Origin: Comamonadaceae bacterium
GTDB lineage: Bacteria; Pseudomonadota; Gammaproteobacteria; Burkholderiales; Burkholderiaceae_C
DNA length: 44,426 bases
Assembly (NCBI GenBank): GCA_947381325.1
Contig: CANCUP010000005.1
Location: 1 to 44,426, forward strand
Direction of reading: 5' to 3'
Below the pieces are notes generated by a model. That model was not told the origin of the DNA, ran no database searches, and worked only from the letters and a program-made list of their open reading frames with translations. The position numbers and the translations under genes were made by a program. Positions 15,520-28,045 of the stretch are shown here, piece after piece. How positions within the stretch are numbered: the first letter of the stretch is position 1; every line of letters starts with the position of its first letter.

Positions 15520-18500
15520 AACGCCTGATCCACTATGCGCTGAACCAGCCCCTGTTCATCCTGCTGGGCACACTGCTGTTCATCATGTCTGGGGTGGTGG
15601 CCTTCAACAACCTGTCGGTCGAAGCGTTCCCGGATGTGACCGACACCCAAGTCACGGTGATCGCGCTCTACCCCGGGCGCGCGGCCGAAGAAGTCGAGAA
15701 AGAAGTGTCGCTGCCGATCGAGGTGGCGCTGTCGGGCTTGCCCAACTCGATCCGGGTGTTCTCGCACACCCAGTTTGGTCTGTCGTTCACGGTGGTCACC
15801 TATGACGACAAGGCCGAAGTCAATTTGGCGCGCCAACAGGTCAACGAGCGTTTGCGTGGCGTTGATTTGCCGCCAGGCGTTGAAGCCGAGGTCATGCCCA
15901 ATGCCACACCCGTGGGCGAGATCATGCGCTACCGCCTCAAGGGCGATGGCAAAACCTCCACCGAGTTGCGCACCATCGAAGACTGGACGGTCGAGCGCAG
16001 CTTGCGCCAGATTCCGGGCGTGGCCGACGTGGTGGGCATGGGCGGCTACATCAAACAGTACGAGGTGCAACCTGACTTGCAAAAGCTGCGTGCCTACAAG
16101 CTCACCTTGCAAGACTTGCAAGATGCGCTGGGCCGAGGCAACGCCAATGCTGGCGGCAGCTATGTGGCGCAAGGCGCCCAACAGTTCGCCATCCGTGGCT
16201 TGGGTTTGTTGCGCTCGGCCGACGACATTGGGCAAATCGTGGTCACCGCCCGCAGCAACACGCCGGTCCTGGTGCGCGATGTGGCCAAGGTCAGCATCGG
16301 CGCGGTGCCGCGTTTGGGCACCGTGGGCCAGGACATGGACGACGATGTGGTGACTGGCATCGTGATCATGCGCAAAGGCGAAAACCCCAGCGTGGTGCTC
16401 AAGGGCGTGAAAGAAAAAATCGCCGACCTGAACAAGCGTGTGCTGCCACACGGGGTGCAAATCGAGCCCTTCTACGACCGCTCATGGCTGATGGGCAAAA
16501 CCTTGACGACGGTGTTCAAAAACCTGGTCGAGGGTGCGCTGCTGGTGTCGTTGGTGCTTTACCTGTTCCTGTCCAACATGCGCGCCTCATTGGCGGTGGT
16601 GGTGGTGATTCCACTGGCCCTGTTGGCCACGTTCTTAGGCCTCAAGATCATGGGCGTGCCGGCCAACTTGCTGAGCTTGGGCGCGATGGACTTTGGCATC
16701 ATCGTGGATGGCGCCGTGATCGTGATCGAAAACATCATGCACCGCTTGGCCGAGCGTGGCGAAGGCATGAACGAGAAAGAGCGCCGCACACTCATCACCA
16801 ACGCGGCCAACGAAGTGGGGCGCCCCACCCTGTTCTCGATGTTGATCATCATTGCCGCGCACATCCCGATTTTTGCGCTGCAACGCCACGAGGGCCGCAT
16901 CTTCCAACCGATGGCCTTGTCGGTCACCACGGCGCTGATTGGGGCTTTGATTTTCTCGCTCACCTTGGTGCCCTTGCTGGCCTACTGGATGCTGCGCAAG
17001 GGCATTCCGCACGGCGACAACCGGCTGGTGGCCTGGGCCAAACAGGTGTACACCCCGGTGCTGGACTGGGCGATTGACAAACCCCGCAAGGTCGTCACAG
17101 TTGCCCTGAGTTGTTTTGCGCTGTCTGTCGTCGCCGCTGCCCATTTGGGCTCGGAGTTCTTGCCGGAGCTCAACGAGGGCACTTTCTGGGTCAACTGGGA
17201 CATGCCAGCCAGCGTGTCGCAAGAAGAGGCCGCCAAGATTTTGCGCAAAGCGCGCCTGCAACTGCTCACAGTGCCTGAAGTACGCACGGTGGTGTCCAAA
17301 GCCGGCCAGCCCGAAGACGGCACCGACCCGAAAACCCTCAGCATGGCCGAGGTGTTTGTCGACGTGAAACCCGCCGAAGAATGGCGCAAGGGCATGACGC
17401 GCGAACTGCTGATTGAAGAGATGGACGAAAAGCTGGCCGTCATTCCTGGCGTCGACCCCGCGTTCTCGATGCCGATCCGCGACAACGTGCTGGAATCGAT
17501 CTCACAAATCAAAGGTCAGATCGTGGTCAAGGTCTCGGGCGACGACTTGACCGAGTTGCGGCGCACCACGGAAGCCATGCAACGCGAGTTCAAGCAAGTG
17601 GTCGGCGTGCAACGTGCAGAAATTGACCGTTTGGGCGAAGTGCCACAGCTCGTCATCGACATTGACCGCGACCGGGCCTCACGCTTGGGCCTGAATGTGG
17701 GCGATGTGCAAGACGTGATCGAGTCGGCACTGGCTGGGCGCGCCACCACCCAAATTTGGGAGGGCGAGCGCAAGTTCAGCGTGGTGGTGCGTTTGAGCGG
17801 AGACCGACGAACCGCCGCCAACCTGCCCTCGACACCGATTGCCATGCCCGGCGGAGGCTACACCACCCTTGAGAACGTGGCCACCATCCGCCAAGCCAGC
17901 GGGGCCATGAACATTGCCCGCGAAGCGGGGCGCAGGACGATGGCGATTGGTATTTTTGTGAAAGGCCGCGACATGGGCTCGGTGGTGGCCGACATGAAAG
18001 CACGCGTGGCCAAGAATGTGACGATTGCCGACAGCTATGCCGTGACCTGGTCGGGCGAGTTTGAAAACCAAGAACGCGCCATGCAACGTTTGGCCGTGGT
18101 GGTGCCGATTTCGCTGTTGCTGATTTTTGTGCTGCTGTTCGACGCGTTTGCCTCGTTCAAAACCGCTGGGCTGATTTTGCTCAACGTGCCTTTGGCTTTG
18201 ATCGGTGGCTTTGTGGCGCTGTGGATTTTCAGCATCCCGTTGTCGGTATCCGCCGCCATTGGCTTCATTGCGCTGTCCGGCCAGGCGGTGCTCAACGGCG
18301 TGGTGATGTTGTCGGTGTTTCAGCAGTTGCGCAACGCCGGTCTCACCGTGATCGACGCCGTGAAAGAAGGCGCCCTCCAGCGCTTGCGCACGGTGCTCAT
18401 GACGGCCATGCTGGCGGCTTTGGGCCTGTTGCCGATGGCACTGAGCCATGACATTGGCTCAGAGACGCAGCGTCCGTTGGCGATTGTGGTGATTGGGGGC

Positions 18501-20893: not shown

Positions 20894-21088
20894 ATGAATC
20901 ACACCTTCCAAGTGCAAGGCATGACTTGCGGTCATTGCGAGATGGCCGTCAAAAAAGCGGTATTGCGTCTCGACCCCGAAGCCAAAGTCGTGATTGACCG
21001 CCCACACAACCAAGTCGACATCGAGAGCGCGCACCCACACGAGGCGCTGGCGCGTGCCATGGCGCAGGAAGGGTATCAAGTCGCATGA
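20894..21088 (+). CDS. copZ: Copper chaperone CopZ (HMA domain)
   Basis: A 64-residue single HMA-domain protein with the Cu(I)-binding motif [11 protein letters not shown] near residues 9-19 and the expected ferredoxin-like length. It carries copper to CopA, its divergent neighbour. A strong AAGGAG ribosome-binding site lies 6 nt upstream of the ATG. The downstream pirin gene starts inside its stop codon region (ATGA overlap), so the two are probably translated from one message. Confidence 0.92.
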
Positions 21089-21948
21089 GCCCCGTCACAC
21101 AAGCCCGCGGTGTAGAGCGCTTGGTGCGCGGCCAAGACACGCAAGACGGCGCAGGGGTTCGCCTCACACGCGTGTTGTCACACGATTTGCAACAGCGCTT
21201 GGACCCGTTTTTGATGCTTGACGCCTTTGGCAGCGACAAGCCCGATGACTACATCGCCGGGTTTCCCAACCACCCCCACCGTGGCTTTGAAACCGTGACC
21301 TACATGATTGCAGGGCGCATGCGGCACCGTGACAGCGGTGGCCATGAAGGCTTGCTGCAAAACGGTGGTGTGCAGTGGATGACCGCTGGACGCGGCCTGG
21401 TGCACAGCGAGATGCCCGAGCAAGAAGAAGGCGTGATGGAGGGGTTTCAGCTCTGGCTCAACCTGCCCGCCAAAAACAAGCTGTGTGAGCCCTGGTACCG
21501 TGACATTCAAAGTGCGGACATTCCCGAAGTGACCACGCCAGAGCAGGTGTTGGTGCGGGTGATTGCTGGGGCCGCACAGGGGGTGGCCGGTGCCGTGACG
21601 CGCGAGCACACCGAGCCGCTTTATCTGGATGTGCATTTCCCCGATCGCGATGGCGCGGTTCTGGAACAGGCGATTGCGTCCAGCCACCATGCGTTTGTTT
21701 ACGTGTACCGTGGCCGTGTAGAGGTCGTCCAGGGCGACAGCCAGACCACGGTCCCCGCACAGCGCATGGCGATATTGAGCGATGGCGGCGACGGCGTGGT
21801 GCTGCGCGCCCAAGCCAACACACGCGCCATTTTGATCGCGGGCAAGCCCCTGCGCGAGCCCATTGCCCAATACGGCCCGTTTGTGATGAACACGCGCGAA
21901 GAGTTGGCGCAAGCGGTGGACGATTTCCGCGCCGGTTTGATGGGTTGA
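21085..21948 (+). CDS. Pirin-family cupin protein
   Basis: A 287-residue bicupin. The N-terminal metal-binding cupin shows [19 protein letters not shown] and LVHSEMPE, giving the three His and one Glu ligands of pirins. The C-terminal half carries the pirin_C region with [21 protein letters not shown] near the end. Some bacterial pirins have quercetinase activity; others bind metabolic enzymes, so the function is open. It overlaps copZ by 4 bp, an association that suggests co-expression with copper handling or oxidative stress. Confidence 0.9.
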
Positions 21949-22058
21949 GTCACACAACTTTACGAAACTTGTTGTGTCGCTCAAGGCAGCGATACATGCG
22001 CGGCGCAAAGTCTGAACTTGAGAGAAGCATGTCGCTTCTTGATTCAAAGGACTCTGTC

Positions 22059-25198
<3,140 letters not shown>

Positions 25199-25223: not shown

Positions 25224-26330
25224 TCAGATGCGCATGGGCATCACAACGTATTTGAAGGTGGCGTTTTCAGGGATCGTGATCAAGGCCGAGCTGTTGGAAT
25301 CTGCCAAGTCAATTTGAACCATGTCTTGGTCCATGTTGGTCAATGCGTCAATGAGGTAAGTCACGTTGAAACCGATTTCAATGGCATCACCACCGTAATC
25401 AATTTCCAGTTCGTCCACGGCTTCTTCTTGTTCTGCATTGCTGGATGCAACACGCAGCAAACCAGGCTCAAGGTTCAAACGAACACCTTTGAATTTCTCG
25501 GTGGTCAAGATGGCCGTGCGTTGCAAGGTTGCCAGCAAGGCGGTACGGCCCAAGGTGATGGTGTTTTTGTGATTCTTAGGAATCACACGGTTGTAGTCAG
25601 GGAATTTGCCTTCAACCAATTTGGTCACGAATTCCATGCCTTCGAAACTGAATTTGGCTTGGTTGCTGGCGAATTGCATGTCAATGGCACCCTCTTTGTC
25701 GCTCAAGAGGCGCTGCATTTCCAACACCGTTTTACGAGGCAAGATGACTTCTTGGCGCGGCACTTCAATGTCCAAGGTAGCTGAAGCGAATGCCAAGCGG
25801 TGCCCATCGGTGGCCACCAAGCTCAGTTGCTTGCCCTCAGCAACAAACAAGATGCCGTTGAGGTAGTAACGGATGTCATGGATGGCCATGGCAAACGACA
25901 CCTGGTGCAACAACTCTTTCAAGGTCTTTTGTGGGACGCTGAAAGCAGGGCCAAAGCTGGCGGCCTCTTGAACCAAGGGAAAGTCTTCTGCTGGCAAGGT
26001 TTGTAAAGTAAAACGACTTTTTCCGCCTTTGAGGATGACTTTGTTCTGACTCGATTCCAAGCTGACGGTTTGGTCCGATGGCATGGTGCGAAGAATGTCA
26101 ATCAGCTTTCGGGCGCCAATCGTGGTTGTGAAGTTGCCTGAATCACCGTCGAGTTCGGCCGTTGTGCGTATTTGAATTTCTAAATCGCTGGTGGTCAGTT
26201 GCAACGACGCCCCTGTTTTGCGAATCAACACATTGGCCAAGATGGGCAAGGTATGGCGGCGCTCCACAATGCCTGCAACAGATTGCAGCACCGCAAGTAC
26301 CTTGTCTTGTGTAGCCTTGAGAACGATCAT
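25224..26330 (-). CDS. dnaN: DNA polymerase III beta subunit (sliding clamp)
   Basis: A 368-residue clamp with three repeats of the DnaN fold. Recognisable parts are the N-terminal MIVLKATQDKVLAVLQSVAGIVERRHTLPILANVL and VATDGHRLA in the middle domain, and the C-terminus ends in the conserved YVVMPMRI, which forms part of the peptide-binding cleft. The gene has an AGAGGAAA ribosome-binding site. It is downstream of dnaA, separated by 231 bp that hold the likely origin-unwinding element, so its promoter must lie within or beside that region. Confidence 0.97.
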   Translation of the reverse strand: MIVLKATQDKVLAVLQSVAGIVERRHTLPILANVLIRKTGASLQLTTSDLEIQIRTTAELDGDSGNFTTTIGARKLIDILRTMPSDQTVSLESSQNKVILKGGKSRFTLQTLPAEDFPLVQEAASFGPAFSVPQKTLKELLHQVSFAMAIHDIRYYLNGILFVAEGKQLSLVATDGHRLAFASATLDIEVPRQEVILPRKTVLEMQRLLSDKEGAIDMQFASNQAKFSFEGMEFVTKLVEGKFPDYNRVIPKNHKNTITLGRTALLATLQRTAILTTEKFKGVRLNLEPGLLRVASSNAEQEEAVDELEIDYGGDAIEIGFNVTYLIDALTNMDQDMVQIDLADSNSSALITIPENATFKYVVMPMRI

Positions 26331-26561
26331 GGTTTCCTCTTGATTTCTTAATTTAAATTAGTAGTAGTAGATAAGCACAGCAGGTTACTGTGGAAAACAC
26401 CATTTTCCTCTTTTTTTTCAAGCACTTGAGACCTCTTCAATGGTGTTGGTAAGCCTGTTTTGCGGTGTGTCATCAAACTGGATAACTTGTCAAAGCGCAC
26501 GTCATCTGTGGATAAGTCATGGGTTGTTCTGAATTCATCCACAGCTTTGTACAGACACGTT
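26331..26561. other. oriC: Probable replication origin unwinding region (oriC) between dnaA and dnaN
   Basis: Read on the minus strand, the order is DnaA boxes, a GC-richer spacer, then CTA repeats and an AT-rich tract, matching the basal unwinding system of B. subtilis. Boxes: 26389-26397 (TTTTCCACA, minus, one mismatch), 26507-26515 (perfect TTATCCACA, minus), 26535-26543 (TCATCCACA, plus, one mismatch), and a weak one at 26477-26485. Four tandem TAG triplets (DnaA-trio candidates) lie at 26359-26370, next to an AT-rich tract at 26341-26360. The origin role is inferred from these elements and from the dnaA/dnaN location; no GC-skew test was done. Confidence 0.75.
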
Positions 26562-27977
26562 CTAGCCTTTGAGTGTCTGTTCAAGTACATGGAGTTGTTG
26601 GTTGAGTTCTGTCAACTGCAATCGCTCTGCAGTGATCTTTCGAACCGCATGAAGCACAGTGGTGTGGTCCCTGCCCCCAAAAAGTTCGCCAATTTCAGGC
26701 AAGCTCTTTTGCGTGAGTTCTTTTGCAAGGTACATGGCGATTTGTCTGGGTCTGGCGATCGAGGCAGGCCGCTTTTTCGAATACATATCGGCAACTTTGA
26801 TCTTGTAGTAATCCGCCACCGTTTTCTGAATGTTTTCAACTGAAATTTGTCGATTTTGAATGGACAACAAGTCACGCAATGCATCGCGTGCGAGTTGGAT
26901 CGAAATTTCTTTTTGGTTGAAACGCGAATAGGCCAGAATTTTGCGCAATGCGCCCTCAAGCTCACGCACGTTGGAGCGAACATTCTTTGCCACGAAGAAA
27001 GCAACTTCTTCGGGCATTTCAGTTCCTTCGTTGCGCGCTTTGCTGATCAAAATGGCCACCCGCATTTCAAGTTCTGGGGGCTCGATGGCCACAGTCAGAC
27101 CTGCATCAAAGCGTGACACCAAACGTTCGTGGATGTCGGTCAAACCCTTGGGGTAGGTGTCGCTGGTCATCACAATGTGCGATTTTTTGGCCAGCAAGGC
27201 CTCAAAGGCATTGAAAAACTCTTCTTGGGTTCGCTCTTTGTTGGCAAAAAACTGAACATCATCGATGAGCAGCAAGTCCAAGGAGTGGTAACGCTCTTTG
27301 AATTCGTCAAAGGTTTTGCGCTGATAGGCCTTAACCACATCCGAAACAAATTGCTCAGCATGGATGTAGAGAACTTTGGCGTCAGGTCGCTCAGCCAGCA
27401 GCTTATTGCCCACCGCATGGACCAAATGGGTCTTGCCCAAGCCGACACCACCATAAATAAACAGTGGGTTGTAGAGTTGTCCTGGCATGGTGGCCACGTG
27501 CATGGCCGCCGCCCTGGCCATTCGGTTGGCCGTGCCCTCGACCAAACTGTCAAACGTCAATGCGGTGTTGAGCCGTGTGCGCGGTCCATTGGGGGCAGAC
27601 TCTTCTAAACCGATCAGACTCTCTGGCAAAGCCTCTAATTCCTGAGAAAAAGGCAGAGAACGAGATTTAATCGGCTGTTCTTTGGGAGTGATCGCTAACT
27701 CAAGCTGAACAGGCTGGCCATACATCTGGTGCAGGATGCTGGCGATTCGATGTGCGTATTGAGCCCGAATCCAATCGAGCTTGAAGCGATTCCCGACCAA
27801 AACCACCACCCGGCTCAGGTCGTCAGCCACGGTGGCGGTGAGGGGCTTGATCCATGTGTTGAACTGTTGCTCTGGCAGTTCTTGCGCCAATTGGTCGACA
27901 CAAGCTTGCCACAAACCGTCGCCAGAACCTGCTGGTAAGCCGTCTGAACTGTTGGATGGTGGAGCGCCCTGGATCAT
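26562..27977 (-). CDS. dnaA: Chromosomal replication initiator DnaA
   Basis: A 471-residue initiator. Domain I holds [14 protein letters not shown]; a variable linker of about 40 residues follows; the AAA+ domain has Walker A GGVGLGKT at 176-183, Walker [11 protein letters not shown] and sensor motifs. Domain IV carries the DnaA-box signature [11 protein letters not shown]. The ATG at 27977 has no evident Shine-Dalgarno, and a DnaA box lies 10 nt upstream of it, consistent with autoregulation. No later in-frame Met fits domain I, so this start is retained. It leads the dnaA-dnaN-gyrB cluster. Confidence 0.97.
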
Positions 27978-27986
27978 GAGTTTTTC

Positions 27987-28045
27987 TGTGGATAGGTACG
28001 CTCAAAAGGAACGCGGTGACAGACTTTATCAAAAATTTTTCCACA
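27987..28045. promoter_or_regulatory. Pair of DnaA boxes upstream of dnaA
   Basis: TGTGGATAG at 27987-27995 (minus-strand CTATCCACA) and TTTTCCACA at 28037-28045 (plus) each differ from TTATCCACA by one base. They lie in the 200 bp between dnaA and rpmH, which is AT-rich. They may serve dnaA autoregulation or be the second half of a bipartite origin. Confidence 0.65.

Follow-up and report, generated by a model that had tools for sequence, protein, structure and literature searches.

A candidate chromosomal origin between dnaA and dnaN of a Limnohabitans-like bacterium apparently combines TAG trios with the left-half geometry of Escherichia coli oriC, in a module that sits elsewhere in relatives

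The 231-bp gap between the dnaA and dnaN genes of the bacterium analyzed here is, very probably, its chromosomal origin of replication (oriC) and the site at which the origin opens. Judging from the sequence, this gap combines a left half of the E. coli type (unwinding element, 14 bp, R1, IHF site, R5M) with TAG trios of the Bacillus subtilis/Thermotoga type, and the resulting module appears to be self-contained: in other lineages it sits elsewhere on the chromosome and, in the three moved cases tested, the replication skew has moved with it. The module, its spacings, its conservation, its relocation and the agreement of the skew in these moved cases are all computed from the genomes. Two models of origin opening that are usually separated, trio-guided growth (B. 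subtilis) and IHF-bent capture (E. coli), would be joined here in one conserved element, and a single family that offers naturally relocated and tandemly duplicated origins makes it testable which parts constitute an origin. Among the listed titles and abstract openings of open-licence articles in PMC, we find neither a description of oriC relocation in Comamonadaceae nor the joint geometry of trios and an IHF site arranged as in the E. coli left half.

The stretch of DNA analyzed (hereinafter, the window; 44,426 nucleotides) is contig 5 of a 242-contig, 3.06-Mb genome that is 88.9% complete. By its sequence, the source genome is that of a Limnohabitans-like member of the Comamonadaceae; the DnaA of the window shows 91% identity to that of Limnohabitans sp. 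B9-3. The minus strand carries, in order, dnaA, the gap, dnaN and gyrB, with yidC and mnmE located on the plus strand beyond dnaA. The features of the locus are as follows, with offsets counted from the box nearest the unwinding element.

25224–26330, minus strand: dnaN, DNA polymerase III beta clamp (NCBIfam TIGR00663, 320 bits)
26339–26358, plus strand: AT-rich tract CTTGATTTCTTAATTTAAAT of the predicted unwinding element, read from the sequence and AT-rich also in the alignment of 73 modules (A1)
26359–26370, plus strand: four TAG repeats TAGTAGTAGTAG, putative DnaA-trios (3'-GAT-5'), from the sequence and A1
26372–26374, plus strand: TAA trio, shifted by one base from the phase of the TAG run, its end exactly 14 bp from the box
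26375–26388, plus strand: 14-bp spacer between trios and box, of the same length as that between TTATTA and R1 in E. coli oriC
26389–26397, minus strand: R1-like DnaA box nearest the unwinding element, TTTTCCACA (plus strand TGTGGAAAA), 1 mismatch to TTATCCACA
26416–26428, plus strand: IHF-like core TTTCAAGCACTTG, 1 mismatch to WATCAANNNNTTR, at +18 from the box
26444–26452, minus strand: weak box TGTTGGTAA (plus-strand letters), 2 mismatches, at +46, the R5M position
26507–26515, minus strand: perfect DnaA box TTATCCACA (plus strand TGTGGATAA), at +109
26535–26543, plus strand: inverted DnaA box TCATCCACA, 1 mismatch, at +137
26562–27977, minus strand: dnaA, initiator (NCBIfam TIGR00362, 555 bits)
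27987–27995 and 28037–28045, no strand assigned: two boxes upstream of dnaA, probably serving dnaA autoregulation

The initial annotation of this DNA described a B. subtilis-like unwinding element in which four TAG repeats adjoin an AT-rich tract and face a DnaA box, with a perfect box and then a near-perfect one following toward dnaA. The coordinates of all these elements hold, and so do the strand and order of the DnaA-trio system: the TAG run is a series of at least three NAN trios that read 3'-GAT-5' away from the box. When the 231-bp gap is simulated 20,000 times with a first-order Markov model, no copy contains TAG or CTA four times in tandem and 14 contain three repeats, which argues against a chance origin of the run; three or more boxes with at most one mismatch occur in 1 of the 20,000, and the gap is the only place within the 44-kb window with three such boxes in 600 bp. 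The spacer described as GC-richer deviates in the stated direction by a small margin (44% GC versus 40% for the whole gap).

Trio elements are already known and widely predicted: the part of the work of Pelliciari et al. (2021, PMC8287927) drawn on here describes the DnaA-trios of the B. subtilis basal unwinding system (BUS) and predicts elements of this kind in 1755 of 2070 origins, with a limit of 16 bp between trios and a box that carries no more than two mismatches. The gap resembles the BUS, as outlined there, in its succession of box, spacer, same-strand 3'-GAT-5' repeats and AT tract, but differs from it in three respects: a single clear box stands beside the trios, one base shifts the phase of the TAG run, and E. 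coli offsets are occupied by an IHF-like site and a weak box. With the oriC of Thermotoga maritima, where three tandem TAGs (the eTrio) are reported to be essential both to unwinding and to the binding of a single strand by DnaA on the boxes (PMC10316083), the gap shares the tandem TAG trios; for this member of a distant phylum, however, the IHF/R5M geometry is not described in the portion of PMC10316083 drawn on here.

The surroundings of the box are of a different kind. The R1-like box of the window is accompanied by an IHF core and a same-sense R5M-like box at the same offsets as in the oriC of E. coli MG1655 (locus L192), where GATCAACAACCTG (2 mismatches) lies at +18 from R1, TGTGAATGA lies at +46, and TTATTA ends 14 bp from R1. 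A profile built from the 73 family modules aligns with L192 without gaps over 77 bp (13.2 bits, E = 0.0022, scored on a 701-bp oriC piece with the E value for 45 kb searched). Because this alignment runs at matching offsets, the box, the +18 site and the weak +46 box are the likely counterparts of R1, IBS1 and R5M, respectively, the exact places of IBS1 and R5M in the E. coli sequence being assigned from the profile match itself; the roles of R1, IBS1 and R5M in E. coli oriC are treated in the part of PMC10380432 drawn on here. No 13-mer DUE elements are found in the gap, as read from the sequence and A1; in their stead are the TAG repeats and a short AT tract, so that the repeats would be the counterpart of the DUE by position but trios in kind. 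The gap differs from E. coli oriC also in the places of its further boxes, +109 and +137, and in that the module adjoins dnaN rather than mnmG. The label "B. subtilis-like" accordingly suits the trios and does not capture the box environment, whose geometry (14 bp, +18, +46) is that of the E. coli left half.

These spacings are conserved. Among 104 readable dnaA-dnaN gaps, including that of the window and with some genomes present twice, the module was placed by script in 56, and a 57th was located in the 653-bp gap of L038; for comparison, 35 modules were collected from the 48 remaining genomes (34 moved modules and that of L038). The distance between the end of TAA or TAG and the box is exactly 14 bp in 55 of the 56 gap modules and in 33 of the 35 others, that is, in 88 of 91 modules overall. 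At +18, 48 of the 56 gap modules have an IHF core with no more than one mismatch, the next-best offset accounting for 2; the core at this position is weaker in the remaining 8, one of which is mis-anchored (the box of L065, correctly anchored in the trio-spacing count). The +18 core is unrecognizable (more than two mismatches) in 11 of the 35 other modules, which come from Acidovorax types, Diaphorobacter, Paracidovorax and Pseudorhodoferax. At +46, a box with no more than two mismatches is present in 7 of the 56 gap modules, and TGTG in 29 of the 56 and in 31 of the 35 others. Farther out in the 56 gap modules, same-sense boxes group at +108 to +110 (forward boxes with no more than two mismatches at +109, +110 and +108 in 34, 12 and 8 cases, respectively) and inverted boxes at +136 to +138.

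Given that the gap is the origin, we favor, with some confidence, IHF-assisted capture over growth of DnaA purely in cis. Under this scheme, DnaA would bind the boxes of the gap; a protein of the IHF/HU type would bend the DNA at +18 and so return the DnaA on the far boxes to the vicinity of the unwinding element; the DnaA oligomer would capture the TAG/TAA strand (the plus strand of the window) as a single strand; and this capture would open the AT tract beside dnaN for helicase loading. The principal alternative, which we consider rather improbable, is an origin of the pure BUS type, in which DnaA, starting at the box, extends in cis over the spacer to reach the trios and the IHF-like site is incidental. 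The strand and order of the trios match the BUS, the nearly invariant TAA/TAG at 14 bp lies inside the 16-bp limit of Pelliciari et al., as given in the part of that work used here, a same-sense box-like sequence, AGTAGATAA (26366–26374, 2 mismatches), shares positions with both the TAG run and the TAA trio, and the +18 core is missing from the 11 modules noted above. However, the positional constancy of the core in the gap modules and the E. coli-like TGTG at +46 speak against an incidental site. In the window, moreover, the TAG run (five NAN trios) starts 18 bp from the box, beyond that limit, within which there are only, at 10 bp, the weak run GAT-AAG-CAC and, at 14 bp, the single TAA, and the 14-bp spacer contains no second box (best candidate, 5 mismatches).

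The proteins encoded in the genome are relevant to the preferred scheme of IHF-assisted capture. The DnaA of the window is identical to E. coli DnaA at V211, R245, R285, R399 and T435, positions that have roles in the E. coli protein. H136 of E. coli DnaA, mentioned in the part of PMC10380432 drawn on here, is not conserved in the alignment with the DnaA of the window. An ihfB-type gene following rpsA and an HU gene are present in the genome of the window; no ihfA was found in this genome, 88.9% complete as it is, and ihfA-type matches of 116–147 bits, two of them above the family cut-off, were detected in seven other genomes searched.

Loss of the TAG repeats and boxes in close relatives had been named at the outset as grounds for abandoning the element. 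Within the genus, there is no such loss: of 30 loci including the window, 26 have readable gaps and all 26 contain the module, with degenerate repeats in L027. Two more drafts of the genus (G001 and G032) give no profile match; as the DnaA search yields no match in the first and a weak one in the second, these drafts probably miss the dnaA region. Across the family, the module is gone from 47 of the 104 gaps, in which neither CTACTA nor a box with one mismatch or fewer is seen; 7 of these 47 hold one box with two mismatches. We do not take this absence as a refutation because the module has relocated in these genomes.

The relocated copies were sought in two ways. The exact pattern TAGTAGN{8,30}TGTGGANAA is found in 27 of 48 genomes (the 47 without a gap module and that of L038, where it lies in its own gap, leaving 26 of 47 with the pattern elsewhere) and in 23 of 52 genomes with a gap module, each time beside dnaA; in one genome (G009), the same 33 letters recur on another contig as a second copy. 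A reversed-pattern control matched 17 of the 48 and 20 of the 52, and, the pattern being neither complete nor clean, it was dropped as sole evidence in favor of the profile (111 positions from the 73-module alignment, E ≤ 0.01 plus strict filters). This search is blind to location, and genomes whose modules served in training, many of those searched, match by construction. Of 77 genomes searched, 76 yield modules. Each of 29 gap-type genomes has exactly one, located in the gap, as does the genome of L038; 46 of the 47 genomes without a gap module have one to four elsewhere, including moved ones that the pattern missed, the sole exception being G083, where the profile finds nothing. Two or more modules are present in 25 of these 47 genomes (a few species being counted twice), and in 21 of the 47 the copies share a contig, always on the same strand (21/21). 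Twenty stretches were examined, one of which is the gap of L038; 17 of the remaining 19 moved-module stretches contain a pirin, rdgC, LTXXQ, DUF2189 or minC gene.

Several individual cases can be recorded here. A Variovorax genome (G099:C1:321646-324258) has three full module matches and a partial one, all on one strand and within 2.6 kb; matches are spread over two contigs in G074, G080 and G106; and G165, a one-contig genome of the order, has two matches 136 kb apart (G165:C1:3042140 and 3178125). Contamination may explain the two-contig modules of G091 but is not needed: L148 has a pair of modules separated by 4 kb, and in L151 and L160 the same gene neighborhood lies on one contig.

A tree of DnaA and DnaN (101 rows) implies 9 changes of state, at least 3 of them forced by well-supported branches, in a reconstruction by a quick method with 42 of 98 forks open and long branches. 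The profile matches 41 of 150 genomes drawn from the order at E ≤ 0.001 and 6 of 24 genomes from other families at E ≤ 0.05, leaving 18 without a match, so that the exact sequence form belongs mainly to the Comamonadaceae. The profile can double as an origin finder for draft genomes of this family. In four of the 6 matching genomes of other families (G039, G049, G053 and G057), a match lies just downstream of dnaA, which would fit the dnaA-dnaN gap being the older site of the module. We tentatively suggest, as a possibility that we rate below even, that the movable unit is an origin cassette of ~150 bp that left the gap several times, mostly for the LTXXQ/rdgC/minC site and often as same-strand tandem copies, each possibly loading one of two helicases.

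GC skew was analyzed in G086, G095 and G040, whose modules have moved, and in G033, G011 and G126, which are of the gap type; in all three of the former the skew turns at or near the module. In the complete genome of Comamonas testosteroni NFYY023 (G086), the minimum over the 400 kb examined is at 18,122, flanked by modules at 17,814–17,916 and 18,247–18,346, with a gene-strand-corrected change-point at 18.0 kb and dnaA (25–1404) ~17 kb off. In the Limnohabitans MAG G095, the minimum at 212,034 (5–95% range, 204–223 kb) is 3.5 kb from the module at 208,414, a position that costs 5.5 in 2 × dlogL; dnaA, at 292.4 kb and 84 kb from the module, costs 118. G040 belongs to another family and lies outside the profile training set; sampled in 20 stretches of 20 kb every 40 kb from 1.09 to 1.87 Mb (a resolution of 20–40 kb), it shows negative skew in 14 of 15 stretches before 1.69 Mb (0.0001 in the other) and positive skew in 5 of 5 after, with the sign changing between the stretches at 1.65–1.67 and 1.69–1.71 Mb, the module at 1,695,345 and dnaA at 1,281,498, 413 kb from the module.

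In the gap-type genomes, the minimum falls on the module in none of the three. For the Curvibacter genome (G126), the fit is weak: the raw minimum is at 706.8 kb, the change-point at 647.5 kb (620–686 kb) uncorrected and 678.5 kb corrected, and the module at 684.9 kb (cost 3.4). For the two genomes of the genus of the window, the minima are 10–12 kb off, both on the dnaA side: at 139.4 kb (5–95% range, 134–142.5 kb) versus a module at 129.1 kb in G033 (contig C3), and at 80.8 kb versus 92.9 kb, over 80 kb only, in G011 (contig C21). In G033, the offset persists after gene correction (139.5 kb), the module position costing 10 and the rpmH-dnaA gap 12. The skew minimum of the window itself, 42.7 kb, is near the window end and says little. 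The expectation, set out in the initial annotation, of a minimum close to the gap is therefore borne out only roughly. Taken at face value, the offsets in G033 and G011 would place the true Limnohabitans origin 10–12 kb away on the dnaA side and make the gap module a relic, but both genomes have a single profile module, the window offers no second place with three boxes in 600 bp, and the module is kept in every readable gap of the genus, all of which makes this reading highly unlikely.

Between the box and the IHF-like site, at 26401–26409 (plus strand), is the motif GGRAAAATGG in the sense of dnaN; it occurs also in gaps without the module (L043, L075 and L092) and is perhaps part of the dnaN promoter. 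That the whole element, directly upstream of dnaN as it is, might be a dnaN promoter or leader, or a DnaA-controlled switch, and no origin, is a reading to which we give hardly any credence, for all that this motif stays behind in module-less gaps, as the module occurs also at a distance from dnaN, next to rdgC/LTXXQ genes or minC, and the skew turns at it in the three moved cases tested.

The proposal that the opening site lies between dnaA and dnaN, and not upstream of dnaA, is supported. A pair of boxes 46–52 bp apart is found upstream of dnaA in 49 of 55 readable genomes with a gap module and in 31 of 43 without one, and no TAG or CTA run of three is found there in either group (55 + 43 genomes). 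An origin upstream of dnaA is rejected on these grounds; the pair, common regardless of the gap module, probably is a dnaA promoter element involved in autoregulation.

In the window, an LTXXQ gene (Spy/CpxP-like; 21945–22601) and a pirin-like gene (21085–21948) adjoin gyrB; this stretch, 21085–22601, is part of the neighborhood that, with rdgC, DUF2189 and minCD, houses the moved origins in relatives.
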